Made by a program: the position numbers and the translations under genes
Part shown: piece after piece, positions 3,001 to 26,563 of the stretch
How the letters are laid out: every line of letters begins with the position of its first letter
Position numbering within the stretch: the first letter of the stretch is position 1
Virus record (IMG/VR): IMGVR_UViG_3300025809_000098
Location: 1-27,578 of that record
Source: a virus
DNA: 27,578 nt
Direction: 5' to 3' (one strand)
Notes under the pieces: generated by a model
The model's input: only the letters and a program-made list of their open reading frames with translations
The model's database searches: none
What the model was told of the DNA's origin: nothing

Positions 3001-6000
3001 ATATCTGTACGAGCGTTTTGTTAAACAGTCTGGAGTAGTCGATCCTGATTTAGAACGCTTGTTCATCAACATCATTCCAAATGAAAAGCAGCACCGAGAC
3101 TTGTTGGTACAGAATACCAAGAAGATTGATTTACTAAACGCTGAACCTAATACACCTACAGGCAAAGCTATTAAGTCTCGTATTGGAATGAACACTTTTC
3201 ACAATCAGGATATAGAGGACGCACTAGCTGGTAAAGACATGATTATGCCAATGAAAGAATTGGCTAAATCTTTCTGGTCATTAACCAGTGAGCGAGCACC
3301 AACGGGTAAGTTTAGACAAGTCTCTTCAATGTATGATGAACTCCGTCAAGCCTCTGAGGGAATCTATAACATCATTCGTGAAAAGTCTGCTGAAGATAAG
3401 GGCAAGATGGGTAGTGATCTTACTCCAGAAGAGTGGGCAGATTTAGAATCAGGCATGATTGAAATGCCAATGGAAGCGGAGAAAGAATTAATTTACGAGC
3501 TTGCGAAGCATTGGGAGACTGGTGGTGTTCGTGAACTCGTTCACAAGCTAGATGATACTTTGCGTGCTCAGTATTTCCGCAATGAGCAAGAGCTTATCTT
3601 GTCTGGCATGTCTAAAGATGCCTTCCCTGATGCGCTTGAAAAGTATCGTGATGGATTCAAGATAAAGTTGGCTTGGCAGAAGAAGAAGCCAGAGATCGAA
3701 CCTTCACTTGAGACCTTAGTGACATGGGCTAATAAGGCTAATTATAAGAAAGTTAAAAAGACTCCTCGTGATCAATTTAAGTCTGAAAAGTTTTCAGTTA
3801 AAGACCTTTCTATTAAGGAGCTAACTGATCTGGCTGGAGGCTTTGACATTAAAGGCCCAGCAGCGGCTGCTGCGCTTTTAGAGAGGTGGAAGAGTACCCC
3901 TGCAAAATTACCTAAAAACTTTAAAGAAGATGCAAGGTACAACAAGTTAGATACTCCAACCATTCGTCATCTTTTGCGTGAAGCAATCTCAGATGACGCT
4001 GCTGGAGATGCAAATGGCGCAGGCAACGTCAGAGCAATACGACTTGAGATGATAAGGCGTGGACAAAATAAAAGAGCAAAAGCAGCTAAGAATGACACTA
4101 AGCTAGGTCACATTGTCAGGATGCTCGTAGATAAAGAAGAGCGTCTGTTTAATGGGCCAGTCGATGAGAAAACAGGCATACCAAACGGCATGTCAACTCA
4201 GGGACAAGAGTTCATACGGATGTTCACCCATCGGGATAATTTGATACAGAACTCCATACGTCAGGTCATGTCTCGATTCTTAAATATGCTTGATATGGAA
4301 ACCAACAGTGAGTTTTTAAGCACAAAATTCTTAGATGCTTATACCATTGTGGACGACCTTGAATCTCACTGGGGAAGAATCGGTGATCCTAACACTCCTT
4401 ACGCTAGAGATATGATCAACTCAGTTGATCTAAGCTCTAAAGAAATGAGAGCGTTCTTGAGCCGAATCCGTAAGGATGTCACCAATCTGGCTATGATCTC
4501 AGGAGAAAGCACTGAGGGAATTAAAGATGGTATGAGAGGCATGGCTCGCCTAGCTCTCAGAACTCAAGCGATCCCATCCTCCAGTAAGATAGCCATTTTA
4601 GAAACCTATCGCTTACAGCCAGAGGTAATAAAGAAACGTGTTCGTAATTACCTTGGAGGCTCTGCTAGTGAGCATCAACAAATGGAGCACTTCTTTACTG
4701 AGTCTTTCATCCATTACATGTCAGGCCATTTTCCACAAAAGAATAATATCTTTACTGGCTTAACGAACAGGGAAGCTAACACTGTGATTGACATCTTCGA
4801 TGATGTTCGTGACAGCGTTAAATACCTAACTGAGGGTGTGGTTGATAAGCACAAGCTAGTTGGCATCTTTGACGAGCTTGCTTACGCTGAACCTCTTGGA
4901 GCGAATGAAGTTAAGATACAGCAAGCTGACGCTTTAAAAGATACATTCTTGAGAGCAGTCCTTCCAAAGGTGAAGGATAAAATGATCAATAGCTACATGG
5001 ATTATGCAGAGAAGGCCAGTCCAACTCGATTCAAGTTAATGGATAATGCAGCCAGAGGTCTTGGTCGCAAAGCTGATGGTTCAATACAAATCGTATGGCA
5101 CTCCAGCCCTAATGGTGCAGCATTTGACCGCAACAAAAACCCTGTGCTCAGACCTTCTGCCGATGGTCGTCATGGTCGAGGTATTCATGCCACAACTAAT
5201 GCTGATGTAGGATTTGAGACGTTTGCAAAACGCCCAACTCTTGCTTCTTTGCAAGGGATGATGGAAGCTCTTGCAAAAGAAAAGAAGATATTTAAGGAAT
5301 CTTCAACAATTGCTGGCCCATCAAAGTTTCTTTCGATGATGGATAACGTGAAGCTACTTCATGAGGCTCACATGGACAGCTCTCACTATGCCGAAAGCAT
5401 TGTGATGACTCAGAATAAAATCAGGTCTAAAGAGCAGATGATAGCTCGATTAGGCAGAGAGAGTAATGATCCAGATCGTATCGCTCGGATGGAAGAAGAG
5501 CTAGACAAAGACCTTACGGATTTAGAGTTCTTTAACCAAGCCTACGTTATGGCTGATGAGGAGGTTGGTAGGCTCAACCAAGTCCTTAATCAAGTCGTTG
5601 GCTATAAAGCAGACCCAGTAATGATACCGCTTATTGTCGGTGCTGAACGGGTCGCTATGTTTGATAAAACCCTTCATCGTCCAGACAGTGACCTGATCAA
5701 TGAAATGATTGGTCGCGTAAAGGAGCTTGAAACTAGCACTACTGATCCCACTGACAATCAACAAGTCATTTTAAATGGTTCTGAAGGTGGCCTCGCCCAA
5801 GCAATTGCAGAAGCAGTTGCGGATAAAGTGGCAGCTAATCCTGATAACACTTTAAGTGGGCAACAATTCTACAATATCTTGGAGTCAAACTTATCAGATG
5901 GAAGTCTGGATGGAGGGCCACTAGCTCGTGCGTTCATTGACGATATGTTGGAGTCACTTGGTTATGAAGCCAAGGTGGGTAGTACGACTAATCGCGTCAA

Positions 6001-9650: not shown

Positions 9651-10472
9651 TTACTCTCGTGGCTGTGGATGATACCGCATGTATTTTTCGGGATCATTGC
9701 AGCCTTCAGTTCCTCCGCAGTTATCACACAACCATGTGCCATCCTTGACAGGTTTAGAGAACTGACAGCTTGATGCCTCGACTGGCACAGCCATGTCACT
9801 CCAGCATACATCTCGTTTGAAACATCCTCGACATCTCCAGTCAGTTATATCTACAGAAATCTTAGCAGCATTGCCTTCTAGCACAGTCACTATGCGATGC
9901 TTTAGATAACTCCACTCAAGCTGATCGAACTCAACAATCTCCGCATGATAGCGAGACTTGTCTTTGTTGTACGCAATAAAGAATGCTTCTTTCATGTCAG
10001 CCAGTGCCATGTACATCATCAACTGACAGTAGTAGCTGTGGTGTGAAATCTTCACGCCCTTGTTCAGAAACTTTTGGAAGCTGGTGTTGTTCATGGATTT
10101 GATTTCAAGGATGTAGGTCTTACCATCCAACTCAATCATGCCATCAGTGTGCGAACTAATGTGTCCACCCAACTCCTGATAACTCCACTGCTCTCCAGTC
10201 TCAGGATCATTCTCGATGACCACTGCACCCTTAACTTTTTTGAGGTCAGCAACAACAACTTCTTCGATCATGTGACCCATCGCAAAGATGCGCTTGAGAA
10301 ATGCTGAAGGCTCAGTGTTGGGGAATCCTCGCAATGAAAACGCTAGGTTAGCGTCACATGGATTACCTACTCCACTGGCCCCTATGTACTTGCGAGACTT
10401 GCTCTCCGTCTCTAGGTCATAAGCATTATCTATCAGCGTGATAACATTAAGTGCTGGCGATTGATCTGTCAT
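9651..10472 (-). CDS. Cas4/RecB-like PD-(D/E)XK nuclease with Fe-S cysteines and an extra C-terminal zinc motif
   Basis: A 273-residue nuclease probably acting in phage recombination or DNA end processing. Visible motifs are GHMIEE at 66-71, D110 (HTDGMIE), E123-x-K125 (LEIKS) and Q150 (QLMMYM), the standard RecB-type nuclease core. C39 near the N-terminus plus C214-x2-C217-x5-C223 match the four-cysteine Fe-S pattern of Cas4/AddB-type nucleases. Beyond this a second cluster, C236, C249-x2-C252 and C258, looks like a small zinc ribbon. The start lies inside the upstream winged-helix gene (26-base overlap), suggesting coupled translation. It is the last gene of the minus-strand recombination block. 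There is no CRISPR array here, so a CRISPR adaptation role is not supported. Confidence 0.82.
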   Translation of the reverse strand: MTDQSPALNVITLIDNAYDLETESKSRKYIGASGVGNPCDANLAFSLRGFPNTEPSAFLKRIFAMGHMIEEVVVADLKKVKGAVVIENDPETGEQWSYQELGGHISSHTDGMIELDGKTYILEIKSMNNTSFQKFLNKGVKISHHSYYCQLMMYMALADMKEAFFIAYNKDKSRYHAEIVEFDQLEWSYLKHRIVTVLEGNAAKISVDITDWRCRGCFKRDVCWSDMAVPVEASSCQFSKPVKDGTWLCDNCGGTEGCNDPEKYMRYHPQPRE

Positions 10473-10725
10473 TGAGAGTCACCTTGTATAAGTAAATTCC
10501 TTGGGAGAAGTAAATCTTATCCACAGTGTGAGCACCATGCCTATCCTTGCGGAGATGCCTGAGTTGTGCGCTCACACTAGCTTCGGGATCACCGCACTCT
10601 TTAGCGATAGCAGCCAGTGTCTTTGGTACGCCATCACGGGTTGCGAGTTTCACCCGATCCATTTGCTTGTCCAGCCTTGCGTCATCTCGCTCTGGCCTGT
10701 AGTCACTGCCATCAAACTTTTCCAT
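10447..10725 (-). CDS. Small winged-helix DNA-binding protein
   Basis: A 92-residue protein. Residues about 20-65 (from QMDRVKLATRDG, then TLAAIAKECGDPEASVSAQL, then RHLRKDRHG) have the alternating helices and 'DPEASVSAQLRHLRK' recognition helix of a small winged-helix fold, a type common beside phage recombination genes. A good ribosome site (AGAGGA) precedes the ATG. It sits after the terminator at 10751-10774, so it needs either readthrough or its own promoter, and it overlaps the nuclease gene by 26 bases. Its target is unknown. It could regulate the nuclease or act as a DNA-binding partner of it. Confidence 0.6.
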   Translation of the reverse strand: MEKFDGSDYRPERDDARLDKQMDRVKLATRDGVPKTLAAIAKECGDPEASVSAQLRHLRKDRHGAHTVDKIYFSQGIYLYKVTLNDRSIAST

Positions 10726-10750
10726 ACTCGTGTCCTCTTATTCTAGTACC

Positions 10751-10774
10751 AAAAAAGCCCCAATGAAGGGGCTT
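10751..10774 (-). terminator. Rho-independent terminator after the recombination genes
   Basis: A seven-base stem (AAGCCCC / GGGGCTT) with a short AATGAA loop is followed, on the minus strand, by a run of T. It lies 18 bases after the stop of the ssDNA-binding gene, separating the genes from 12567 to 10792 from the two downstream genes. Confidence 0.85.
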
Positions 10775-10791
10775 GGTGATCATGCTAAGAT

Positions 10792-11292
10792 TTAGAAGGG
10801 GATGTCGTCATCGAAGCTATCCTTACTAGATGCAGTGCTGGTTGCACCCACTGGAGCGGCTGGTTGATCTCCAGCAGCAAAGTACGGGTTGTTTTGGCGT
10901 GGCTCACCACCACCTTTTCTGCGTTCACCTGTCTGATCTTGCCAGTCAGCACCTTGCACTACATGAACACCAACTGTCAGACCTTTCATTTTCGCAACGT
11001 CTGGAGTTGAGTGGGCATAACCTGCCTTGACTAACATCGTCTTCAGCCTACGCTGACCAATCTCCTGCGCTTCAGCAGAAGCGTTGTGAATGTTCATGTA
11101 ATCGATGACCTGACCTGACCCATCCATAGATGTAAGGGTTACAGCTAACCGATGGCCTTTGCCATTTTTAGTCTTCTTAATCTCAGCATCTGCTATACGA
11201 CAGATGTGTGCTCCAGCCGCTAGGGTTGAACCACCCTTGTCTGCTTCTATTCCTGCTAAGTCTATTCCTGCTAAACCATTCCAATCGCTCAT
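10792..11292 (-). CDS. DUF669-type ssDNA-binding protein
   Basis: I chose the ATG at 11292, four bases after the upstream stop and preceded by GGAGA, giving 166 residues starting MSDWNGLAGI; a longer upstream extension would overlap the ATPase gene and looks spurious. The central pattern (TKNGKGHRLAVTLT, then YMNIHNASAEAQEIGQRRLK) matches the DUF669 phage family, regarded as single-stranded DNA-binding. The C-terminus is an acidic tip ending SFDDDIPF after a flexible Ala/Gly/Ser region, as in SSB proteins, where it recruits partners. Its position directly after a Sak4-like ATPase supports a role in annealing or recombination of phage DNA. Confidence 0.8.
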   Translation of the reverse strand: MSDWNGLAGIDLAGIEADKGGSTLAAGAHICRIADAEIKKTKNGKGHRLAVTLTSMDGSGQVIDYMNIHNASAEAQEIGQRRLKTMLVKAGYAHSTPDVAKMKGLTVGVHVVQGADWQDQTGERRKGGGEPRQNNPYFAAGDQPAAPVGATSTASSKDSFDDDIPF

Positions 11293-11296
11293 AAGT

Positions 11297-12109
11297 TTAC
11301 TTCTCCGTTGTGGCAGCTTTAGTGCTTGCCAGTTTATTAATATTGCTTGAGTGCTTTGCCCACTCTTCATCGTTCATCTGCATCTTTGCAAACAACACAG
11401 TGATGTCATCGCACTTCTCCACTGGCAGTAAACGCCTCCGTGGATCACGCGCTTTGGCGTAATGTCCTTGGACTTGATCAGTAACCAAGTACCGAGTCAC
11501 CTTTAACTCTCCATCAACCTCCGCAGTCTTTCGCTTGCCACAGAACACATGGTCAAACAATGCAGGGATTTGCTTACTCACCTTGCCACCTTTAACCATG
11601 GGCCAGTAAGTAGTCTGTCCATTGTCATCCTCCTCCTCGGCTAGGAGACAGGTACACACAACGTGCATGTCCAAATCTCGCATCCACTTCAAAGCAGCAA
11701 TCATCAATCGAGAGTTATCACCCCACTTATCAAACGTGTTTTTGTTGTCCTTGTGCTTCTCTTCCAAGAAAGACATTAGCTGATCCGACAACTCGGTTAC
11801 TGAGTCAATGAAAATCGCCTTGTATCCCATTGATTTAAATTCTGCGCCTGTGATCATGCTCATCGTGCCGCGAAAGGAGAACACTCCCTTCTCTGGATCA
11901 TGAGCATCATCCCAAGAGGTAACAGGGATCACATCAATGGATACGAGCGACAAAGATTTTAAGCCACCCTCCAAGGAGATGATTAAGGTCTTGCCGTACT
12001 CACGTTGAACGTGAATCGCTTGAGTGGTTTTTCCGAATCCATGATGAGCACATAAGAGAGTCTTCTCGAAGTGAACGTCTGCATCGGTGGTGCTTAATAC
12101 TTTAAACAT
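11297..12109 (-). CDS. Sak4-like RecA-fold ATPase (phage nucleotide-binding protein, AAA_24 type)
   Basis: A 270-residue ATPase with a clear Walker A (AHHGFGKTT at 21-29) and a Walker B strand (AIFIDSVTE, D102). Family knowledge: proteins of this size and pattern beside an ssDNA-binding protein are Sak4-like recombinases that support single-strand annealing. The C-terminal part is charged with no further recognised domain. The start overlaps the upstream stop (TAATG), and the downstream ssDNA-binding gene starts four bases after this stop, so these genes form a tight operon. Confidence 0.8.
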   Translation of the reverse strand: MFKVLSTTDADVHFEKTLLCAHHGFGKTTQAIHVQREYGKTLIISLEGGLKSLSLVSIDVIPVTSWDDAHDPEKGVFSFRGTMSMITGAEFKSMGYKAIFIDSVTELSDQLMSFLEEKHKDNKNTFDKWGDNSRLMIAALKWMRDLDMHVVCTCLLAEEEDDNGQTTYWPMVKGGKVSKQIPALFDHVFCGKRKTAEVDGELKVTRYLVTDQVQGHYAKARDPRRRLLPVEKCDDITVLFAKMQMNDEEWAKHSSNINKLASTKAATTEK

Positions 12110-12567
12110 TAGATGGCCTCGATTTTAAATTTAGGTTTCGCGGCTGAACGAGTGAGTGCATGAGCCAATCGATCTCGATCAAATTGTGATGCCTTCTCGT
12201 AGCGTGTCTTGGTTACTGCAAATTTCACGTTCATGCACTCAGGTAAATCGTCTGGCCCCTTATAAAGGTATGCCATAACATCCTGATCCCATGTCATCTT
12301 CTCAGCTACTGTTGTCTGTACTAATAGCTGCTCGGTCTTCACAGAGTGCTCACCGACTTCTCTCATAGCAGGGGGTAATGCCATGGCTAACCCCTCTGTT
12401 GCAGCGTCTAAGGCTTCTTTGGCAGCTTTAAAGCGTTGCTGTAATAGAACAACATCAAGAGCATGCTCTTGGATGCGTTCTAAAAAGTCTGCACCTTCTA
12501 CTTCTATCTTACTTGTTGGTAATGAAGAGCTGTCATCGTCATAACTGGATGGATCAAACATTCCCAT
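12109..12567 (-). CDS. Uncharacterised recombination-operon protein, helical
   Basis: A 152-residue protein I do not recognise by family name. Residues 1-25 are acidic and Ser-rich, followed by a helical, probably coiled-coil stretch (about 28-68) and a basic C-terminal third (TKTRYEKASQFDRDRL, then AAKPKFKIEAI). GGGAG lies 7 bases before the ATG. It is the first gene of the minus-strand recombination operon, its stop overlaps the Sak4-like start (TAATG), and its promoter region holds the shared palindrome at 12610-12628. A partner or loader for the ATPase is a reasonable guess, but nothing in the sequence proves it. Confidence 0.7.
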   Translation of the reverse strand: MGMFDPSSYDDDSSSLPTSKIEVEGADFLERIQEHALDVVLLQQRFKAAKEALDAATEGLAMALPPAMREVGEHSVKTEQLLVQTTVAEKMTWDQDVMAYLYKGPDDLPECMNVKFAVTKTRYEKASQFDRDRLAHALTRSAAKPKFKIEAI

Positions 12568-12587: not shown

Positions 12588-12628
12588 ATTAATTAAATGT
12601 GATCTAATTTGTAATCATGCAAATGATA
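12588..12628 (-). promoter_or_regulatory. Putative leftward promoter carrying operator copy 1 (divergent control region)
   Basis: Operator copy 1 occupies 12610-12628, with ATCAT and ATGAT arms separated by GCAA. Read on the minus strand its end ATTACA can be a -35 hexamer, followed 16 bases later by ATTAAT as a -10. On the plus strand TTGTAA (12609-12614) and CACAAT 17 bases later could serve the rightward genes, placing the operator inside both promoters. The promoters are inferred from hexamer matches; the palindrome itself is seen directly. Confidence 0.55.
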
Positions 12629-12679
12629 TGTCACAATTGTGGCGAAATCAATACATTTTTTAAACAAGGGAAAAATAAA

Positions 12680-12997
12680 ATGTCAGTTCAATACAGACTC
12701 AACATCAACAGGTTGTTCCGAGACCTTGGTGGCCCAAGTGCTATGGCCCGATACACAGGCCACCCTAGAACCTCTTTCTATAGGTGGATCAATGCAGACA
12801 GTGTTAGCTCAAAACTTTTGGAAGATATAAAAACTGCGTTCCCTGATTTGGAACTCGACTTTTATTTTGAACCTATCGAAGTACGAGAAGTGATTGCCAG
12901 AACAGGACATATAAAGAGGGGGCTTGCCCCAAGAACAATCGACAGAGAGTTAACACAAAAAGAAAAGAATGCGCGGAAGACGTATCACAAGGAATAA
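12680..12997 (+). CDS. Cro-like helix-turn-helix regulator
   Basis: I chose the ATG at 12680, giving 105 residues, because AAGGG lies about 9 bases upstream and an earlier in-frame ATG at 12617 falls inside the palindromic operator and has no ribosome site. Residues about 10-35 (LFRDLGGPSAMARYTG, then RTSFYRWIN) form a helix-turn-helix like small Cro or YdaS-type repressors. The C-terminus is basic (IKRGLAP, then KNARKTYHKE). The gene sits at a divergent control region, next to operator copy 1 and leading into the primase/helicase, the classic place for a phage early switch. I infer that it binds the shared palindrome. No separate CI-like repressor is visible in the window. Confidence 0.65.
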   Translation: MSVQYRLNINRLFRDLGGPSAMARYTGHPRTSFYRWINADSVSSKLLEDIKTAFPDLELDFYFEPIEVREVIARTGHIKRGLAPRTIDRELTQKEKNARKTYHKE

Positions 12998-13001
12998 AAA
13001 A

Positions 13002-14936
13002 ATGAGCAAAGGAAATTTAGATAAAGCTCTGGAGTATTTGGAATCGGGCTGGTCAGTCATCCCACTATCATCTACTGAGAAGCATCCATTAGTGAAGTGG
13101 AAGAAGTACCAGAAGGAGCACCCATTAACTGAAGACTTAGAGCACTGGTGGGAAATGTGGCCCGATGCAGACGTAGGCATAATCACTGGTGCAATCTCAG
13201 GGATATGCGTAGTCGATGCAGACAATGAGGAGTCTGTTGAACGTGCAGAACTGGAAGGTTATCTTTCTCCTATACAAGTGAAGACCAAGCGCGGTTGGCA
13301 TTATTACTTTGCCCACCCAATGGATGGTGTAATCCGTGGCCCAAGGTCAGGGGTTAATAGTGGTAAGCACTGGATTGATTGCAATGGATTAGATTTCCGT
13401 GGCGATGGCAGCTACGTTAAAGCACCTCCCTCATCTGGCTACTCATGGAGCATTCCAGAAGGTATGGACTTGCATGAGGACATGCCTACCTTTAAGGACT
13501 ACATCAAACCACAAGCATCTGTTGACTCCGTGACCTCTGAGTTTCTTGGACTTGAATCGATTGATCTTTCGTCACTGGCTATGGAAGGTGATACGAGGCG
13601 AGACATCTGGAAAGAGACTGAGGATTACGCGAAGCAATTTGATAGCAATAAAATCCCCATGACTGGTGGGCATGGTTGTCATGATCGTGTGTTCAGCTAC
13701 TTATCCTATGCAGTGCTAGTGCATGGCGTAGGTGATGAGTTGGAAAAGGCTGGTCGAGAGTTCATGGAGAAGTTTTATGAAGAGCCGTTACCCGAACATA
13801 AGTTTAAAGTTAATCTCGATTCTGTTCGAGAGAAAGAGATGCGGAACCACCCAGAGAGATTCGACATTGAAGGTAATTATATTCCTCGTGACCAAGGTGA
13901 TGCAGATGTTGCGTTCACTTTGGATGTGGATGAAGAGGAGAAGGAAGATGAATACATTATCAAACCGCTCACTGTTGCTGATGCTGATGCGCTGATCGAA
14001 GAGGCTGCAAGTTTTAAGTACCTGATCGAGCCATGGTTAAGGAAGGGAAGCATTACTCAAATCTTTGGGTACTCAGGCCATGGCAAGTCGATGTTCTGCC
14101 AACACGCTATGTACCATCTGGCTGTTGGTAGAGCGATGGGAGCGTATGAGGTGGAGAAGCCAGCTAATGTTCTTTACTTTGATTGGGAGAATGGCAGGGC
14201 AACAATCGGCAACATGCTTAATCGTTTTCGCAACTCATTCGGATCGACTGATAAGTTTAAAATGTGGACTCCCTTTATCAGCCAGAACGAGATCAACTTG
14301 AATGATCAGAAGGGACTCATGGAGTTCCAGAAGTGGGTGGTTCAAGTTAACCCTGATGTCGTAGTCATCGATACAGTTCGCTCTGCCTTCAGTGGCCTAG
14401 AAGAATCCAAAGCGGAGAGCTGGGCCAGAATGAATAGCATCTTACTCAAACTCCGCAACGCAGGGTTCGCTGTCATCTGGCTGCACCACAGTAACAAGCC
14501 TAGTGAGAGCGGCCTTGGTCGTGAGGCTGGGAGTACCAACCAACTGACTGTGGTTGAAACGCAGATGCGTGTCACGCAAGTGTACGAAGATAAGTCTACT
14601 GCTCATCAAAACGCTGGACTGTTTGCTCCAGATGTAGCGGAGAGAGAGGGAGGCAACTGTGTCTTTCAAAGGTTCCGTCAGCAGATACCTCGTAACGCAA
14701 CCATGACTGTTGTGATGGAGCTGAGATACGGAAAGGTGCGTGAGTGGTCTGACCTTATGGAGCGTGTGATGTATGTTGGATTCGCACGAGACGAGCGCGA
14801 CAACTCAATCGTTGTGACTTCAAGATCACCCAAGCAAAAGGCTGAGTGGTACTACGAGAACAATCGTACACTGGAGAACATTGCTGATTCATTGCACAGA
14901 CCAATACGGACGATCCGTGAGTGGGTGGGCGAATGA
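13002..14936 (+). CDS. Bifunctional Prim-Pol / RepA-like hexameric helicase
   Basis: I chose the ATG at 13002, four bases after the upstream stop and with AAGG upstream, giving 644 residues; an upstream in-frame ATG overlaps the regulator. The N-terminal primase-polymerase domain (about 1-165) shows VDADN (D72, D74), RGWHYYFAHP around H100-H105 and GLDFRGDGSYVKAPPS. A linker with an acidic patch (near 305-315) leads to a RecA-fold helicase with Walker A GYSGHGKS at 356-363, Walker B VVVID ending at D457, and LHHSNK at 494-499. The last 40 residues look like a small winged helix (TLENIADSLHRPIRTIREW). Such fusions prime and unwind at phage and plasmid origins. The stop overlaps the next start (ATGA). 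Confidence 0.85.
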   Translation: MSKGNLDKALEYLESGWSVIPLSSTEKHPLVKWKKYQKEHPLTEDLEHWWEMWPDADVGIITGAISGICVVDADNEESVERAELEGYLSPIQVKTKRGWHYYFAHPMDGVIRGPRSGVNSGKHWIDCNGLDFRGDGSYVKAPPSSGYSWSIPEGMDLHEDMPTFKDYIKPQASVDSVTSEFLGLESIDLSSLAMEGDTRRDIWKETEDYAKQFDSNKIPMTGGHGCHDRVFSYLSYAVLVHGVGDELEKAGREFMEKFYEEPLPEHKFKVNLDSVREKEMRNHPERFDIEGNYIPRDQGDADVAFTLDVDEEEKEDEYIIKPLTVADADALIEEAASFKYLIEPWLRKGSITQIFGYSGHGKSMFCQHAMYHLAVGRAMGAYEVEKPANVLYFDWENGRATIGNMLNRFRNSFGSTDKFKMWTPFISQNEINLNDQKGLMEFQKWVVQVNPDVVVIDTVRSAFSGLEESKAESWARMNSILLKLRNAGFAVIWLHHSNKPSESGLGREAGSTNQLTVVETQMRVTQVYEDKSTAHQNAGLFAPDVAEREGGNCVFQRFRQQIPRNATMTVVMELRYGKVREWSDLMERVMYVGFARDERDNSIVVTSRSPKQKAEWYYENNRTLENIADSLHRPIRTIREWVGE

Positions 14937-15334
14937 TTGAAGCTGCGTTTTGTTTAGCATTGAATGTTTATTTTGAGACGAGGAGCCAAGGGATAGCTGA
15001 GATGATCGCTGTCTCTGAGGTGGTGATGAATCGTGTTGAGTCACCAAAGTATCCTGACACTGTATGTGGAGTGGTGAAGGATGGAGTGTACTGGAATGGG
15101 TATCCCATCAAACACAAATGCCAATTTTCTTGGCACTGTGATGGAATGTCTGATGTCCCTACAAATTTAAAAGCGTGGGAGTTATCCAAGCAGGTTGCCG
15201 AGGGTGTATTGCTTGGTCGCACGAAGGGTTCAGTGGGAAAAGCCATTCACTATCACGCTGAGTACGTTTACCCTGCATGGGCGAAGGTTCGTCCTATCGT
15301 AGGGAAGATTGGAAAACATATTTTTTACGAGTAA
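14933..15334 (+). CDS. SleB/CwlJ-like cell wall hydrolase (Hydrolase_2 type)
   Basis: I chose the ATG at 14933, which overlaps the helicase stop (ATGA), giving 133 residues. The start of the domain, LALNVYFETRSQG with E15 as probable catalytic acid, is typical of SleB/CwlJ-type peptidoglycan hydrolases, as are the VMNRV segment and the C-terminal HYHAEYVYPAWAK. There is no signal peptide or wall-binding domain. It is the second peptidoglycan-active enzyme in the window, and it sits in the replication operon rather than the late lysis cassette. It may be an extra endolysin or have a role early in infection; the sequence does not decide between these. Confidence 0.75.
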   Translation: MIEAAFCLALNVYFETRSQGIAEMIAVSEVVMNRVESPKYPDTVCGVVKDGVYWNGYPIKHKCQFSWHCDGMSDVPTNLKAWELSKQVAEGVLLGRTKGSVGKAIHYHAEYVYPAWAKVRPIVGKIGKHIFYE

Positions 15335-15397
15335 CGGACGAAAGTTGTCAATCAATCTACTCATAATGGATGCCTCCAACACATACGGACATTCATT

Positions 15398-15634
15398 ATG
15401 AGCTTACACAAATCCAATTCAATCGCACTAGCCAGAACCCATGTAGGTGTAGCCCTCAACAACGCGATGTCTGACGTTATGGGAGAACCCTTGCGTGAGA
15501 TAATGTCTTTACTCAAGAGCGGTGACATCGACTCCACTACTGCTCTCATTGATGACACCATGGAAGACTGTCATGACCCTCTCATAAAAGACCATCTTCA
15601 TAAAGCGTATGGATATTTGCAGGACATTTCTTAG
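15398..15634 (+). CDS. Small hypothetical protein (78 aa)
   Basis: I do not recognise this. It is a soluble, mostly helical protein with an acidic second half (GDIDSTTALIDDTMEDC). It follows the hydrolase after 63 bases and ends just before the stacked hairpins at 15646-15704. The ATG is preceded only by a weak purine stretch. Coding is supported mainly by strand, position and a balanced composition, not by similarity. Confidence 0.5.
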   Translation: MSLHKSNSIALARTHVGVALNNAMSDVMGEPLREIMSLLKSGDIDSTTALIDDTMEDCHDPLIKDHLHKAYGYLQDIS

Positions 15635-15637
15635 GTC

Positions 15638-15704
15638 AAAAAAAACCAGCGAAGGAGGGACGCTGGCGAAACACTGACTAGCATCAGTGGACTGCTGGGA
15701 GCAG
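15638..15704 (-). terminator. Terminator with three stacked hairpins after the small minus-strand gene
   Basis: On the minus strand the order is: stem CTGCT/AGCAG (15692-15704), stem CACTGA/TCAGTG (15672-15689), then stem CCAGCG/CGCTGG (15646-15666) followed by a run of T. The last hairpin is a standard rho-independent terminator for the gene at 15714-15878. The two extra stems are unexplained. Confidence 0.75.
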
Positions 15705-15713
15705 CAAAGGAAA

Positions 15714-15878
15714 CTATTTAATTCGTGTTACCACACCATCATCATCAACCATCTTGATCACCTTGAGTGGGCCGAAGGCTTCATTGAGTGCATCAAATCC
15801 TTCTACTGCCCAAGCAAACTTCTCTCGGTTCGCCTTACGTTTCTCCTCAGATTTCGTAAGTTGCTGATTTGGTTTCAT
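15714..15878 (-). CDS. Small basic hypothetical protein (54 aa)
   Basis: A short Lys/Glu-rich protein (MKPNQQLTKSEEKRKANREKF at its N-terminus) ending VDDDGVVTRIK. I chose ATG 15878; an upstream in-frame TTG at 15899 would add seven residues. It lies alone on the minus strand inside a plus-strand block and has its own strong terminator just downstream, which argues that it is a real transcription unit. Function unknown; a small independent cargo or regulator gene would fit. Confidence 0.5.
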   Translation of the reverse strand: MKPNQQLTKSEEKRKANREKFAWAVEGFDALNEAFGPLKVIKMVDDDGVVTRIK

Positions 15879-16080
15879 ATTTTCACTAAGTTGTTTCAAT
15901 TTTTTAGTTTGTAAATGAGTAGAGGAAAACTAGGTAGAGAAAAACTTGGTTAACCTTTGAACGAATATCTCTGCGAAGTGAAACGGGAGCAGAAAGATAT
16001 GAGCTAGTGTTACCTGTGTCTTGGTTACTTTAAAAACTAAAAAATAGGGTAGCACGGATCGCTTTATAAAGCAAATTTTT

Positions 16081-16122
16081 TAATCATCTAAATGATTACA
16101 ACATAGCATTACATGATAGTAT
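16081..16122 (+). promoter_or_regulatory. Operator copy 2 with candidate promoter for the gene at 16158
   Basis: TAATCAT and ATGATTA form a perfect 7-base inverted repeat around CTAA at 16081-16098, followed by CA. ATTACA (16095-16100) can be a -35, with TAGTAT (16117-16122) as a -10 after 16 bases. The flanking 15900-16080 region is noncoding and AT-rich, with nothing else that I can name. Confidence 0.6.
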
Positions 16123-16157
16123 TAATCCCTAAGTAAATTATTCTTAGGAGATGTGCA

Positions 16158-16451
16158 ATGCCAAAGAAAGTTGTCATACCCAAACAGTTCATGCGCTGGC
16201 TTAGAGAGAACCACGAAGACTATACTCACAAGCAACTGGCTTCCAGAGCTGGCTGTTGTGTAGACACCATGAAGCGTCTCCTCCACAGAGAAGGACTCCA
16301 AACATTCGAGGGAGCTAAGTACGTTGCGATCAACGAGAACCCACTGAAAATGTGGGACAGACCATGTATCCGATGTAAGTGTACGAAGTCTCGACCCAAG
16401 AACCAATACATCTGCTCACCCTGCTGGGGCAGAGAATACGAAGATGTCTAA
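16158..16451 (+). CDS. Small DNA-binding protein: helix-turn-helix plus C-terminal zinc motif
   Basis: A 97-residue basic protein with AGGAG 7 bases before the ATG. Residues about 23-46 (THKQLASRAGCCVDTMKRLL then HREGL) look like a helix-turn-helix. The C-terminus has CIRCKC near 70-75 and ICSPC near 85-89, a pair of Cys-x2-Cys knuckles that probably bind zinc. It is the first gene downstream of operator copy 2. I expect a phage transcription regulator or DNA-binding accessory protein, but the family is not recognised. Confidence 0.7.
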   Translation: MPKKVVIPKQFMRWLRENHEDYTHKQLASRAGCCVDTMKRLLHREGLQTFEGAKYVAINENPLKMWDRPCIRCKCTKSRPKNQYICSPCWGREYEDV

Positions 16452-16595
16452 GCCTCCTCTATCTGGCTGTCTACCATCCGCGCGTGCGCGTATTCGATGA
16501 AGGCACACACTTAAAGGCACATTGTTTTCCATGGTTGTCATCTCGCTGCGCTGGGCTGCGCGAGAGACGTTACAACTTTATCGTCATTCAATGCG
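16452..16595. other. GC-rich noncoding segment with inverted repeats
   Basis: This stretch between two genes holds CGCGC-GT-GCGCG (16479-16490) and a TCTCGC/GCGAGA stem (16541-16565) around a GC-rich loop. Neither is followed by a T run, so they are not ordinary terminators. Only very short open frames are present. It could be a small RNA, a recombination scar or a protein-binding site. Confidence 0.45.
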
Positions 16596-16637
16596 TATCA
16601 TATAAATGATTACATTACAGAGATAAACTGTTACTAT
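16596..16637 (+). promoter_or_regulatory. Operator copy 3 with candidate promoter for the accessory operon
   Basis: TATCAT, spacer ATAA and ATGATTACA occupy 16596-16614, differing from the reverse complement of copy 1 only in and around the spacer. ATTACA (16609-16614) is a candidate -35, with TACTAT (16632-16637) 17 bases later as the -10. The downstream gene starts at 16667. Confidence 0.6.
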
Positions 16638-16666: not shown

Positions 16667-17029
16667 ATGGAAACAAGAGCAATCGAAGACATCTTAATGG
16701 AAGCTAAAAAACCCACTGAAGATGTTCTTTTAAATGATTCACCAAAGAAGGATGTGCTTGCGTCTGAATGCCTCAACAATGCAGCAGGACACCTATCCAA
16801 TCGTGCATCCACTTACGACTCTCCTCAAGGAGAAAGAAGTATGTGTCGCACAGTCCACACGTTCACTTCATTAACTGGCATCGAGATGACTGAGGAGCAG
16901 GGGTGGATGTTCATGTCTATCCTCAAGATGGTTCGTAGTCAGCAGGGTAATTTTAAGCTAGACAACTATGAAGATGGAGCGGCTTATTTTGCATTGGCTG
17001 CGGAGGCAGCGGCCTCGGAAAGGTCATGA
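16667..17029 (+). CDS. DUF6378-like phage protein
   Basis: I chose ATG 16667 because GGGAG (16655-16659) is 7 bases upstream; an ATG at 16661 is too close to it. It gives 120 residues. The segment AAGHLSNRASTYDSPQGERS, followed by IEMTEEQGWMFMSILKMVRS and NFKLDNYEDGAAYFALAAE, matches the DUF6378 pattern seen in many phage and prophage small proteins, whose function is unknown. It is the first gene of an operon running to 19077 and lies directly downstream of operator copy 3. The stop overlaps the next start (ATGA). Confidence 0.72.
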   Translation: METRAIEDILMEAKKPTEDVLLNDSPKKDVLASECLNNAAGHLSNRASTYDSPQGERSMCRTVHTFTSLTGIEMTEEQGWMFMSILKMVRSQQGNFKLDNYEDGAAYFALAAEAAASERS

Positions 17030-17151
17030 ATATTGCAGCCAAACCGAACCCAAAAACAATCAAGAAAGTTAACAAGGCCAATCGCGCAGTGGTAGTTCAC
17101 AAAGACCCAGAAGAGCGCATTGGTTACAAGAAGAGAGACATCAAGAGATGA
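17026..17151 (+). CDS. Very small basic protein (41 aa)
   Basis: This frame begins at an ATG overlapping the stop of the previous gene (ATGA) and ends inside the next start, so it is linked on both sides. It encodes MNIAAKPNPKTIKKVNKAN, then RAVVVHKDPEERIGYKKRDIKR, and is strongly Lys/Arg-rich. No family is recognised. The continuous chain of ATGA overlaps is the main support that it is translated. Confidence 0.55.
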   Translation: MNIAAKPNPKTIKKVNKANRAVVVHKDPEERIGYKKRDIKR

Positions 17152-17327
17152 TTGAGAACATCGCAGTAACACACGCACTTATGACATCACTGTTTATTAT
17201 CATTGGTCAGTGTGTGGAGAAGGAAGACCTACCAACTCCTGTCCTTGCAGCTCTCGTCCTGACCATCCTATCCACTCCAATCACCCTAATTACTTACGCG
17301 ATCAATGTGTCTGGGATTGTACAATGA
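17148..17327 (+). CDS. Small membrane protein (59 aa, two hydrophobic segments)
   Basis: The frame starts in an ATGA overlap with the upstream gene and ends in an ATGA overlap with the downstream gene. Two hydrophobic segments, about residues 5-22 (HALMTSLFIIIG) and 31-56 (VLAALVLTILSTPITLITYA), flank a short charged loop (EKEDLP). It is probably an inner-membrane protein. A superinfection or toxin-like role is conceivable; nothing specific is recognised. Confidence 0.6.
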   Translation: MIENIAVTHALMTSLFIIIGQCVEKEDLPTPVLAALVLTILSTPITLITYAINVSGIVQ

Positions 17328-17773
17328 GAGTCAACGTCTACCGCAACGTCAAAAAGAAACCAAGCATCCTCTCCATACGATGTGCGTCCAGTGGATTAGT
17401 TCTCGGTCACTCACACCATGCCGAACTAACTGATTGCCGTTTTGTTATCCAATCATCTGGTCAGTCTCAAGTACGCAAGACCAATCAGAAAAATGTACAC
17501 GCATGGGTGAGTGGCAACCTTGAATACATTACGGACTTCTGCTCGATCAAGGACAGAGAACTTACTGATGATGTTCTTCACATCACTGAAGAAGAGGTTC
17601 AGCTTGTGCGTGACGTAACCTCATCCTCTCCTAACGTATTTAAGCGCATTCAGTATGACCCATACGAAGATGATACCTTCACTCTTAAAGGCACTGAGAT
17701 CGAAGTTGAGACAGCCGAGGCTGTATCTGTGTACGCAGATGGAACCATCTATGCAAGGGAGCCTAAGTCGTGA
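17324..17773 (+). CDS. Hypothetical phage/mobile-element protein (149 aa)
   Basis: I chose ATG 17324, which overlaps the preceding stop (ATGA); the frame is open further upstream, but that part overlaps the membrane protein. The N-terminal half (MRVNVYRNVKKK, then SSGLVLGHSHHAELTDCRFVI, then KNVHAWVSGNL) recalls a small family of phage and plasmid hypotheticals with a 'NVYRNL...NVHA' pattern; I am only moderately sure of this. The C-terminal half is acidic (YDPYEDDTFTLKGTEIEVETAEAVSV). The next gene starts at a GTG overlapping this stop. Confidence 0.55.
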   Translation: MRVNVYRNVKKKPSILSIRCASSGLVLGHSHHAELTDCRFVIQSSGQSQVRKTNQKNVHAWVSGNLEYITDFCSIKDRELTDDVLHITEEEVQLVRDVTSSSPNVFKRIQYDPYEDDTFTLKGTEIEVETAEAVSVYADGTIYAREPKS

Positions 17774-18132
17774 GCACTCCCAACGGGCTATCACCCAAAG
17801 GATTCTGGACAACCAAAGATGTCAGAATAATCTCAGAGCATTGGGGTCACAAAGACCACAAGGACATTGCATTACTCCTCAAGAGAACTCCAAACGCATT
17901 GCTCATCAAGGCTCAAGAGCTTGGTCTCGTATCCACTCGTCAGCACACTCGATCCATAGACAACCAAGACATCAAGAGGCTTCTCCTCAAGGGTCTCACC
18001 TCCCTAGAAATCTCAGTATACCTTGGGTGTACAAAGCGAAGGATTAATCAGATCATCACTGATGACATTCCCGAATACAAACCACTGCGAGATGCTATCG
18101 GTCAACTCCGAAGGAAGAGAGGCAAGTTCTAG
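17770..18132 (+). CDS. GcrA/SANT-like helix-turn-helix protein (120 aa)
   Basis: It starts at GTG 17770, overlapping the upstream stop (GTGA). Residues about 11-55 (FWTTKDVRIISEHWGHKDHKDI, split here, then ALLLKRTPNALLIKAQELGL) follow the W-T-x2-D-V...W-G...I-A-x2-L-x-R-T...K-A-x2-L-G-L pattern of GcrA-N-terminal or Myb/SANT-like DNA-binding domains. A second helix-turn-helix is likely near 80-100 (TSLEISVYLGCTKRRINQII). Two DNA-binding modules suggest a transcription regulator or a site-specific DNA binder. The target is unknown. Confidence 0.65.
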   Translation: MSTPNGLSPKGFWTTKDVRIISEHWGHKDHKDIALLLKRTPNALLIKAQELGLVSTRQHTRSIDNQDIKRLLLKGLTSLEISVYLGCTKRRINQIITDDIPEYKPLRDAIGQLRRKRGKF

Positions 18133-18737
18133 TGTATGCCACCCAGTCATGGCTGTACCCAGACATGTACTTAGTCTCACCATTTCATATTTGCTCAGTC
18201 GTCAACGAGACTCAACACTGGAGATCACCAACCATTGTGCGAACCGAGTGGGTCTCCATACCAAACGATAACCCAGTCATCCAAAAGAACTGGTACTCGC
18301 TCCACTCTGGCGTATTCATAGGCGATGAAGAGACGGGCCGAATTATTGTACGCAATCGCAAGTGGCGGTTCATTGAACTCCAGCCAGCACATCCCAGTCA
18401 GTCTCATTGCAACGTAGGCTGGAGCCGTAACCAAGACAAAGTAGGATGGGCAGGATTCAAGAATCCGTGTCCTACCTCCAGTTCGAGACGCACGTTCACC
18501 ATTGGAGACCTGCACTATCCGAACACATTTAAGGCAGGAACAATCACCAAACTCCAAGAGGCAAAAGACTCAGCCATTCGCTACGCGATAGACATTAACA
18601 GTCCGATCCCCTCAGAACTCCCAGAAGCAAACGATCCATTACCCATTACATTTATACCCCCAGCTCCACCCATACTTACTCAGGAAACAATCAATGCCAT
18701 CAATGAAAGGAATGAAACAGAAGGGCGACAATTTTGA
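18132..18737 (+). CDS. Hypothetical protein (201 aa)
   Basis: It starts at GTG 18132, overlapping the preceding stop by one base. It is rich in Trp, Ser, Pro and Asn (for example WRSPTIVRTEWVS, KNWYSLHSGVFIGDEETGRI). The C-terminal 50 residues are Pro-rich (LPEANDPLPITFIPPAPPIL) and look unstructured. No catalytic motif or membrane segment is evident and I do not recognise a family. Its end overlaps the nuclease gene by 44 bases. Confidence 0.6.
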   Translation: MYATQSWLYPDMYLVSPFHICSVVNETQHWRSPTIVRTEWVSIPNDNPVIQKNWYSLHSGVFIGDEETGRIIVRNRKWRFIELQPAHPSQSHCNVGWSRNQDKVGWAGFKNPCPTSSSRRTFTIGDLHYPNTFKAGTITKLQEAKDSAIRYAIDINSPIPSELPEANDPLPITFIPPAPPILTQETINAINERNETEGRQF

Positions 18738-19077
18738 ACGTGAACTTGCGGCTCATCTAAACGCGGAGTGTTACCCAACTACCCAGTCAGCTTATCGTGC
18801 TCCTCTATCTGGCGGTGGTAATGTAATGACATCTGGTGGAGCCGATTTGGTAGGTACACCTGACCTATTCGTGGAGGCCAAGCGAGTAGAGAAGTGCAAC
18901 TTCAAAGAAGCCATCAGGCAAGCCGAAAGGAATGCAAAGGATACTAAATCCCCTGAGACTCCCATCGTCATCAACCGAATGAACAACATGAAAACAACGG
19001 ACGCATATTGCGTCCTAAGACTTGGCCCATTCCTAAAATATTACAACGCTTGGTTGCGTGAGAACGGCTACAAATAA
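18694..19077 (+). CDS. Putative PD-(D/E)XK nuclease, VRR-NUC/resolvase-like (127 aa)
   Basis: A short nuclease-like protein with AGGA 8 bases before the ATG. A conserved Glu near the N-terminus (E15 in FERELAAHL) is followed by GADLVGTPDLFVEAKR, in which D57, E61 and K63 form the D-x3-E-x-K core. The order is typical of small Holliday-junction-resolvase-like or VRR-NUC-like phage enzymes. It closes the plus-strand accessory operon and starts inside the upstream gene. It probably acts on branched or replicating phage DNA; substrate preference cannot be read from sequence. Confidence 0.75.
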   Translation: MPSMKGMKQKGDNFERELAAHLNAECYPTTQSAYRAPLSGGGNVMTSGGADLVGTPDLFVEAKRVEKCNFKEAIRQAERNAKDTKSPETPIVINRMNNMKTTDAYCVLRLGPFLKYYNAWLRENGYK

Positions 19078-19305: not shown

Positions 19306-19845
19306 TTTAATTCCCTAGCCTCTGACCACTGGATCACCAGTGGTCAATAAGATTTGTGTTTAACTTCCCTCCTAAATTTTCCATACACAAATCTTTTGGT
19401 GGCCCTTGGGGAGATGTGGATGTTGAGTTGCACCCTATTGAAAGAAATAGAATTTTTCCTTCAAGTAGACCCCATTTCGGCCAACAGTCTTTGTCGTTGT
19501 CAGTATGTATTATCCACCAACACCAGCAAGACTGCGTGTGCCAATACATAGATCGACTTCTGTTGTTGTTTAAATTGCAAACTAACATGCAATCTCCTTT
19601 ACAAATATTAGATATATATTTTATACATAATCTTTTATAACACGCTAAACTGTTCCTTACAATGTGCCTTGCACTAAGAATGCAATATTAAAACATCATC
19701 GTATGTACCATCTTAGTCATGTCACTCCGATCTGTAATGATTACTTTCTGACTCCATCGATTTGGGGATAGATAGCAGTTTACAACTGCTCCAAATCTCT
19801 GTAGCCTACGCCCTCGTTGACTATCAAACATCAATAGACAACAAA
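19306..19845. other. 540-base noncoding region rich in inverted repeats, left of the tRNA
   Basis: No convincing gene. It holds: a perfect 10-base inverted repeat with a 4-base loop (19323-19346, arms TGACCACTGG/CCAGTGGTCA); a perfect 11-base inverted repeat (AAGATTTGTGT at 19349-19359 and its complement at 19385-19395); a very AT-rich stretch near 19595-19645 with TTTACA and TTATAC 17 bases apart; the palindrome GTAATGATTAC (19734-19744); and a bulged two-stem hairpin at 19759-19797 (outer GATTTGG/CCAAATC, inner AGCAGTT/AACTGCT). It may contain integrase arm sites, an origin or a structured RNA. Confidence 0.6.
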
Positions 19846-19921
<76 letters not shown>

Positions 19922-19953
19922 GTGTTCCATGTAGTGTGGACACGCTACGCTTC

Positions 19954-21012
19954 TCACTCAAGCCCTCTGACTAACATTTCAGCATCCTTCACACCACCAT
20001 GAAAATAATTATCAGTGGTAGTTTGCACCTTACTGTGTCCCATGAACTGGCTCAACATCATTGGATTACAACTGCTATTGTTACCAGCATTCGTACCAAA
20101 CGTATGACGAAAAGCATACAGTGAAACACCAGCCTTAACTCCGAACTCATACCCAGCCGCCAAGGTTGCAGTCTTCAAACGATAGGCTACTGCCTTCGTT
20201 GAATCCTCGTAATCTGCCCAACATGTTTCGCTATCAAACTTGAAAACATGCTCATCACGCTTACAAGAACTTAGCTTGGATAGCTCATCGAACACTACCT
20301 CAATTGCAGAGGAGAAGGGTATCGTTCTTGCCTTCGCCTGACCATTCTTTCCCTTGTAAGATTGAATGGTAAAAGTCTTACCTCTGCGGTCAACATCACG
20401 CCATTGAAGATTGATCAACTCCTTCGGTCTGGCTCCTGACCAAGCAAGTACAACGAAATACCTTCGAGCATAATCATCCATAAAGCTCATGATTTTATCT
20501 CGATCATCATTGTACAAATATAACTTTCTGGCTGGACTATCTTGCCCTATAGTGGGCATTCGTATGGGTGGTAAAGACTTGCTCTTACACCCATAATTAA
20601 TGATAGCTTTCAGCACAGTGTTGTATCGCTTGATGGTAGCTGGAGACAACCCTCGCTCCAGCATACTTCGTTCCCATTCCAAGACCGCTGCTTCATTGAC
20701 ACTGGAGACACTTACTCGTCCCCAGTAATCAGCAACATGCTTAACCTTGTTGAGACTCTCCTTCGCAACTCCCTTCTCGTAGTAAAGCTCTAGCAGAACA
20801 TCCACTGTTAACTCACTACCCTTCACAAAAGCATGACCACCATTGTTCATGATGTCAGACTCAAGTTTTCCCAACGCCTTACTTGCAACTGACTCATCCT
20901 CAGTGAGGTTAATCTTTAGACTGCTCCTCACTGGTACTCCGAATGCGTCCTCGCCTCTGGCGTAATATTTTCCTCTATACTTTTCCAGCCTTAACTTTAT
21001 CTCTGTTTTCAT
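19954..21012 (-). CDS. int: Tyrosine-family integrase
   Basis: A 352-residue site-specific recombinase. The catalytic set is present: R195 (WSGARPKEL), K220 (IQSYKGKNG), R302 (YAFRHTFGT), H326 (FMGHSKVQ) and nucleophile Y336 (DNYFHG). The position three before R302 is Tyr instead of the commoner His, a variation also seen in other integrases. An N-terminal SAM-like core-binding domain lies around 68-145. AAGGAAG precedes the ATG. The start overlaps the upstream helix-turn-helix gene by 38 bases, so the two are probably translated together. Its 3' end faces the tRNA-Gly gene, the likely attachment site. Confidence 0.93.
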   Translation of the reverse strand: MKTEIKLRLEKYRGKYYARGEDAFGVPVRSSLKINLTEDESVASKALGKLESDIMNNGGHAFVKGSELTVDVLLELYYEKGVAKESLNKVKHVADYWGRVSVSSVNEAAVLEWERSMLERGLSPATIKRYNTVLKAIINYGCKSKSLPPIRMPTIGQDSPARKLYLYNDDRDKIMSFMDDYARRYFVVLAWSGARPKELINLQWRDVDRRGKTFTIQSYKGKNGQAKARTIPFSSAIEVVFDELSKLSSCKRDEHVFKFDSETCWADYEDSTKAVAYRLKTATLAAGYEFGVKAGVSLYAFRHTFGTNAGNNSSCNPMMLSQFMGHSKVQTTTDNYFHGGVKDAEMLVRGLE

Positions 21013-21484: not shown

Positions 21485-21595
21485 CGTGCTTCTCCTTGTT
21501 AATCTTATGTGTCTCAGAATAGAGACACTCCCGTAGTATATCCATCTTATTGAAGATTACAATTGATATTTGTAATCATTCATCACATACCTCCT
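21485..21595 (-). promoter_or_regulatory. Leader of the integrase operon with a half operator
   Basis: On the minus strand ATGATTACA (complement of 21573-21581) matches the right half of the shared operator, but the left arm is missing. ATTACA followed 16 bases later by TTCAAT is a possible promoter. GATTACA and TGTAATC also form an inverted repeat in the plus strand around 21556-21579. Weak evidence. Confidence 0.35.
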
Positions 21596-26462: not shown

Positions 26463-26563
26463 AAGGTCTTCCTCTTTAATGTGTCACATAAGTGTAACAC
26501 TTTTAAATGATACTGTGAATCATCCCAATGGTACAGCGTAGCATTACAAATAAAACACAGAGC
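26463..26563 (-). promoter_or_regulatory. Candidate control region of the AAA+/vWA operon
   Basis: Noncoding and AT-rich, holding the palindrome AAGTGTAACACTT (26494-26506) and, on the minus strand, TATCATTTAA followed by GTTACA, a degenerate match to the shared operator. No convincing -10/-35 pair is visible. Tentative. Confidence 0.35.

Follow-up and report, generated by a model that had tools for sequence, protein, structure and literature searches.

CRP-810 is a temperate Roseobacter phage that integrates into its host and founds a family of marine phages; most, not all, CRP-810-type members have an integrase, and hosts across the family include Roseobacter, SAR11 and Sphingomonadaceae (PMC11288001). 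The same paper suggests a LuxR-like gene as a possible switch control, and the words 'repressor' and 'promoter' do not occur in its text (PMC11288001). We found no description of a regulator or an operator for this phage family. For the prophage proteins YdaS and YdaT, a published letter draws on genetic context to argue for a regulatory role (PMC5917428). Here we analyse IMG/VR virus record IMGVR_UViG_3300025809_000098, a stretch of 27,578 nucleotides (the window) whose completeness as a genome is not shown, and describe three copies of a dyad sequence, O1 to O3. From sequence comparison, these are probably the operators of a Cro-like, autoregulating early repressor encoded within the window at 12680–12997, and would mark out its regulon. 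The sites and the proposed regulator are as follows.

12610–12631, no strand assigned: putative operator O1, TGTAATCATGCAAATGATATGT (core 12614–12627), between the divergent recombination and Cro-like/primase operons
16079–16100, no strand assigned: putative operator O2, TTTAATCATCTAAATGATTACA (core 16083–16096), upstream of a gene for a small zinc-ribbon-like helix-turn-helix protein (the zinc/HTH gene)
16593–16614, no strand assigned: putative operator O3, GCGTATCATATAAATGATTACA (core 16597–16610), upstream of an accessory/Holliday-junction-resolvase block
12680–12997, plus strand: Cro-like helix-turn-helix (HTH) regulator, 105 amino acids, recognition helix HPRTSFYRWIN, the proposed binder

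A first-pass annotation of the window had reported the pattern ATCAT-N4-ATGATTACA between genes at three control regions. Scanning the 27.6-kb record, which was the scope of the motif statistics, we recovered exactly three exact matches, at 12610–12627 (minus strand, ATCATTTGCATGATTACA), 16083–16100 (plus strand, ATCATCTAAATGATTACA) and 16597–16614 (plus strand, ATCATATAAATGATTACA). All three are intergenic, in a window whose intergenic share is 7.6%, and they lie where they had been placed, with positions corrected by 0–2 bases; copies 1 and 3, whose likeness had also been remarked, are identical outside the 4-base spacer. The symmetric core ATCAT-N4-ATGAT likewise has three exact copies in the window (3/3 intergenic), and a further four cores carry one mismatch, three of them within genes and one intergenic (26519–26532). 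When up to two mismatches were allowed in the pattern, there were 5 matches against 0.35 expected, and 0 of 100 shuffles reached 5. The fuller dyad is TGTMATCAT-N4-ATGRTKACA, and site 2 departs from TGTAATCATN4ATGATTACA by one mismatch. A matrix trained on relatives scored the three sites at 30.4, 23.2 and 21.8 bits, with the next best position in the window at 8.55; because close relatives contributed near-identical copies to the training set, this gap arises partly by construction, and the chance expectation of 0.35 is unaffected.

The 12680 protein is encoded, at 78–100% identity, by 22 IMG/VR loci. Wherever a relative's sequence extends over site 2 or site 3, the site is found at the corresponding position, in the form AATCATN4ATGRTTACA or TGTCATCATN4ATGGTTACA. 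O2 is in place in loci L006, L028, L031, L022, L032, L014, L033 and L023, and O3 in L029, L031, L036, L014, L034, L038, L022 and L023. At O1, the distance from the start of the core to the 12680 start codon is 66 bp, in line with 66–68 bp in relatives and 67 bp in CRP-810. Some variation surrounds this position: L011 has two copies 21 bp apart (66 and 87 bp before the start codon), and L013, L019 and L026 have a copy about 31 bp further left.

Four promoters were predicted at the three sites from consensus elements, supported by conservation among related sequences; as these sequences share ancestry, conserved spacing is not independent evidence for each of them.

12623–12651, minus strand: predicted promoter PL, TTGATT-N17-TATCAT, for the recombination operon; the operator covers its −10 element and start region
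12609–12637, plus strand: predicted promoter PR, TTGTAA-N17-CACAAT, for the Cro-like gene and primase; the operator lies in its spacer
16095–16122, plus strand: predicted promoter P2, ATTACA-N16-TAGTAT; its −35 element overlaps the right half of O2
16609–16637, plus strand: predicted promoter P3, ATTACA-N17-TACTAT; its −35 element overlaps the right half of O3

The PR pattern TTGTAA-N17-[TC]AnnnT was present in 11/11 relatives, and the PL pattern TTGATT-N17-TAnnnT in all 10 relatives that have TTGATT. Since both promoters are conserved at site 1, the operator there falls within the PR spacer and over the PL −10 element and start. For sites 2 and 3, 13/13 sequences have [AG]TTACA within the right half-site and TAnnnT beyond it (spacer N16 in 3, N17 in 10). 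Conservation thus bears out, at these two sites, the proposal that each site overlaps an ATTACA −35 element; at site 1, the leftward ATTACA element is followed by no TAnnnT at N16 or N17 in relatives, and we rejected this promoter. Dyad operators overlapping predicted divergent early promoters beside the regulator's own gene are the arrangement of Cro/CI-type control regions. The transcription units that these promoters would serve are listed here.

9651–12567, minus strand: leftward recombination operon (phrog_2480 protein, Sak4-like ATPase, single-stranded-DNA-binding-like protein, a small open reading frame, Cas4-type exonuclease)
13002–14936, plus strand: primase/polymerase-AAA protein, same orientation as and directly downstream of the Cro-like gene
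16158–16451, plus strand: small protein of 97 amino acids with an HTH and four cysteines (zinc-ribbon-like), putative regulon member
16667–19077, plus strand: accessory block, from a DUF6378/phrog_474 gene through a RusA-like Holliday junction resolvase (18694–19077)

In the mechanism that we propose, the dyad TGTMATCAT-N4-ATGRTKACA would be occupied by a dimer of the 12680 protein. Covering the overlapping divergent PL and PR at site 1, the dimer would shut off both, which would silence the regulator's own operon (regulator plus primase/polymerase) on one side and the leftward recombination operon (Sak4, exonuclease) on the other. At sites 2 and 3, a dimer would block the −35 elements of P2 and P3, and with them the zinc/HTH gene and the accessory/Holliday-junction-resolvase block. 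The outcome would be an autoregulated early-gene switch that damps replication, recombination and accessory genes. What the sequences show is the sites and their conservation, the retained promoter spacing and placement relative to genes, and the joint change of operator word and recognition helix from one phage group to another; we infer binding, dimerisation, repression rather than activation, and any role in lysogeny.

The fold of the 12680 protein was predicted with AlphaFold from 13 sequences (mean predicted local distance difference test score 68, 84–87 in the HTH), and consists of a strand, four helices and a strand. Top Foldseek matches were Cro of Xfaso 1 and operator-bound N15 Cro (probability 0.97–0.99, E 0.1–0.2), and VIA-align gave Z scores of 5–6 against many XRE/Cro-class proteins. 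The model supports, and does not prove, that the 12680 protein is Cro-like by fold. The same kind of search with the zinc/HTH protein returned weak, generic HTH/homeodomain matches only.

Searches with the 12680 protein and CRP-810 gp24, which are 47% identical to each other, recovered more than 80 further loci, and a homologous HTH gene occupies the same locus in CRP-810 and many IMG/VR relatives. Nearly all members of this CRP-type group have the recognition helix V[VA]RTAPY[GS]W or TVRTAPYGW (VVRTAPYGW in CRP-810), and many carry ACACC-N4-GGTGT in the PR region, which has the same 5-N4-5 dyad geometry with another half-site. The PR dyad begins 66–68 bp before the start codon in CRP-810-like members, like in the window; in CRP-810 itself, the distances are 67 bp for the core and 88 bp for a tandem copy (21-bp spacing, as in L011). 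The CRP-type operator also stands upstream of the zinc/HTH homologue, and the site is 75 bp ahead of this gene both in the window and in L132. Here the GGTGT half-site overlaps the −35 element of a conserved promoter, GGTG[TTGnnn]-N17-TAnnnT, found in 11/16 sequences with GTGTT (other spacings, at most 2). CRP-810 has five sites with at most one mismatch, 5/5 intergenic (p ~3e-6): two upstream of cobS and one each upstream of the zinc/HTH gene, gp24 and gp36. A 58.5-kb record (G023) has three exact copies of the dyad: one at PR, one ahead of the zinc/HTH gene and one that falls within the first leftward gene. The zinc/HTH homologue of CRP-810 is an unannotated gene for 97 amino acids (52% identity), located between primase and resolvase at L027:16621–16914 (OR671924.1 14316–14023).

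Several further observations concern operators in CRP-type phages. In the leftward recombination operon, the first gene contains an exact ACACCTCAAGGTGT at L132:4785–4798, and at the same place in L169; about 160 bp from the PR operator, it could be an intragenic auxiliary operator. A one-mismatch CRP-type operator at OR671924.1 31261–31274 occupies the short stretch ahead of gp36, the gene for an internal virion protein, which suggests that a structural operon may belong to the regulon. A second conserved dyad, TGTA-N10-TACA, is found just right of the operator in HTH upstream regions of CRP-type phages (for example, L129 and L170), and is perhaps formed by two overlapping −10 elements of divergent promoters. 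When all 5-mers and spacers were searched in the HTH upstream regions, ACACC-N4-GGTGT scored high in the CRP group and palindromes of the type TGTAT-N8-ATACA, which probably overlap −10 elements, scored equally; in the window group, related A/T-rich words outranked ATCAT. This search alone therefore does not single out operators, as other words score as high or higher. A search for prophages in GTDB with the HTH alignment returned one short alphaproteobacterial contig, which was not useful for operators, and CRP-810 gp30 ('phosphofructokinase'), considered as a homologue of the 16667 gene, shows no similarity to it.

The intergenic one-mismatch core of the window is a candidate for a fourth site.

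26519–26532, no strand assigned: candidate for a fourth, weak operator, ATCATCCCAATGGT, ahead of the leftward operon leading to CobS/CobT

A half-site ATGAT lies 21 bp away (window 26498–26532), and in CRP-810 an exact operator stands ahead of cobS. The candidate is unchanged in L036, a locus too similar to the window to be informative. Two other repeats of the window resemble the operator in part. An inverted repeat at 21553–21579 (GATTACAA-N7-TTGTAATC-like), upstream of the LuxR-like and integrase genes, has operator-like half-sites facing the opposite way; we rejected it as a further operator given its different geometry and its absence from every other locus (searched with an N6 pattern). 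At 19733–19745, TGTAATGATTACT is a short intergenic near-palindrome of the same half-word, about 100 bp before the tRNA-Gly and integrase genes. An exact-motif scan of IMG/VR gave single matches in many contigs, as a pattern of 14 fixed bases should in a collection so large, and is uninformative.

A third pairing of helix and operator comes from L035, which has the same synteny and a more distant HTH protein with the helix KPRTAPYRM. An identical 22-bp word, TAAACTGACAAAACTTTGTCAC, containing GACAA-N4-TTGTC, occurs in that locus only at the control regions of the HTH and zinc/HTH genes (82 and 33 bp from the genes, compared with 66 and 75 bp in the window). The pairs are thus HPRTSFYRW with ATCAT/ATGAT, V[VA]RTAPY[GS]W with ACACC/GGTGT and KPRTAPYRM with GACAA/TTGTC. 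Because a different site goes with a different recognition helix in relatives, the Cro-like protein is favoured as the reader of the sites. The joint switch of operator and helix lends comparative support to the first-pass proposal of the 12680 protein as binder, and the proposed regulon gains from the conserved orthologous sites and promoters and from its recurrence, with another operator, in CRP-810-type phages.

Who else might read these sites is constrained by the same comparison. There is a small chance that the binder is the zinc/HTH protein (16158) or the LuxR-like protein (20975): both are encoded in the window and in CRP-810, and the zinc/HTH gene has a site upstream. However, the second HTH helix of the zinc/HTH protein, CVDT[LMV]KR[IL]L, is almost unchanged across phages of all three operator types, and a helix that is kept while wholly different operators come and go makes this protein the weaker candidate. 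The LuxR-like gene has no operator of the ATCAT type ahead of it; what stands there is an inverted repeat of another kind. A host transcription factor could also bind, with operator changes between groups reflecting different hosts, and the hosts of the family do differ (Roseobacter, SAR11, Sphingomonadaceae; PMC11288001). We give this a very small chance, as the sites cluster around the Cro-like gene that the phage itself carries, in its early control regions, and the recognition helix of the phage protein changes along with them. That the repeats are promoter sequence or chance similarity, with no dedicated regulator, seems highly improbable. At sites 2 and 3, part of the word, ATTACA, is indeed a −35 element. 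Against this reading, ATCAT on the left lies outside the promoter and is conserved all the same, the dyad is symmetric, its score stands far above background and the dyad persists in other phages under a different word.

The sign of regulation is a separate matter. In lambda, CI at OR2 activates from a position abutting the −35 element, and class II activator sites are centred near −41.5. At O2 and O3, about 40 bp separate the centre of the dyad from the predicted start, and the dyad adjoins a −35 element that departs from consensus (ATTACA/GTTACA), so that the same protein might repress at site 1 and, at sites 2 and 3, activate the zinc/HTH gene and accessory operon in class II fashion. We regard this as rather unlikely: a protein at that position could equally block the −35 element, and the cobS promoter of CRP-810 lies between dyads, an arrangement more in keeping with repression.

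Repression by the 12680 protein, which we prefer, has to be set against several observations that weigh in the other direction. The E-values of the fold matches are weak (~0.1), and the Pfam matches to YdaS and P22_Cro fall below cut-off. Within the window's own clade, L020–L025 have a degenerate site 1 dyad, shifted about 31 bp left, and some CRP-type loci (for example, L163–L165 and L200) retain one clear half-site only, or another word. The pairing of helix and operator is not one-to-one, since L269 and L275 have the helices VSRTSPYRW and VSRTTPYRW, and L275 has ACACC-N4-GGTGT at its zinc gene; it rests on three operator types, a number of clear types that makes a formal phylogenetic test impossible. 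Finally, the regulator is co-oriented with, and directly upstream of, the primase, which is unusual for a repressor that maintains lysogeny and favours a Cro role, damping early genes, over lysogeny maintenance.

By sequence and gene order, the window groups with the temperate CRP-810-type phages. Its primase is 48% identical to CRP-810 gp23 across 98% of the length, the order of Sak4/AAA and Cas4-type exonuclease genes matches that of CRP-810-type phages, and an integrase (19954–21012) adjoins tRNA-Gly (19846–19921), an integrase-beside-tRNA arrangement shared with those phages. No terminase, portal or capsid genes were identified among the open reading frames examined in the 27.6-kb record. 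The tRNA-Gly (GCC) and tyrosine-type integrase at 19846–21012 are a likely attachment region, comparable to tRNA-Thr in CRP-810. A further small predicted transcription regulator (phrog_323, D5-like) is encoded at 17770–18132, in the accessory block downstream of site 3. At the left end, a single open reading frame of 2928 amino acids (35–8821) may, by position only, equal CRP-810 gp35 plus gp34.

More tentatively, one Cro-like protein might be the master early switch across a widespread family of temperate marine phages, possibly an immunity repressor with no separate CI; we found no CI partner among the window's genes. The family would then have rewired its operator words repeatedly, by changing the helix and all operator copies jointly while genes, sites and spacing were kept. 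A specific candidate regulator, its operators and four predicted promoters are now named and testable, and an unannotated regulon gene has been found in CRP-810. For work on the divergence of phage immunity specificities, the family offers a natural series in which operator and helix variants are matched.

Compared with known systems, the locus resembles lambda, N15 and P22 Cro in having a small HTH protein beside divergent early promoters, short dyad operators that overlap promoters, implied autoregulation and, among the fold matches, N15 Cro and Xfaso 1 Cro. It differs from the lambda-like arrangement in that the regulator gene opens a primase operon and operators are also found at two distant downstream promoters. 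Likeness to YdaS/RacR of the Rac prophage is limited to a weak, below-cut-off Pfam similarity of the Cro-like family to YdaS, and no toxin role is implied for the window's protein. With the CRP-810 family, the window shares the order of recombination genes, Cro-like gene, primase-polymerase, zinc/HTH gene, Holliday junction resolvase, LuxR-like gene, integrase and CobT/CobS. The two differ in operator and helix, ACACC/GGTGT with VVRTAPYGW in CRP-810 as opposed to ATCAT/ATGAT with HPRTSFYRW in the window, and the window alone has an accessory block with its own putative operator between the zinc/HTH gene and the resolvase.

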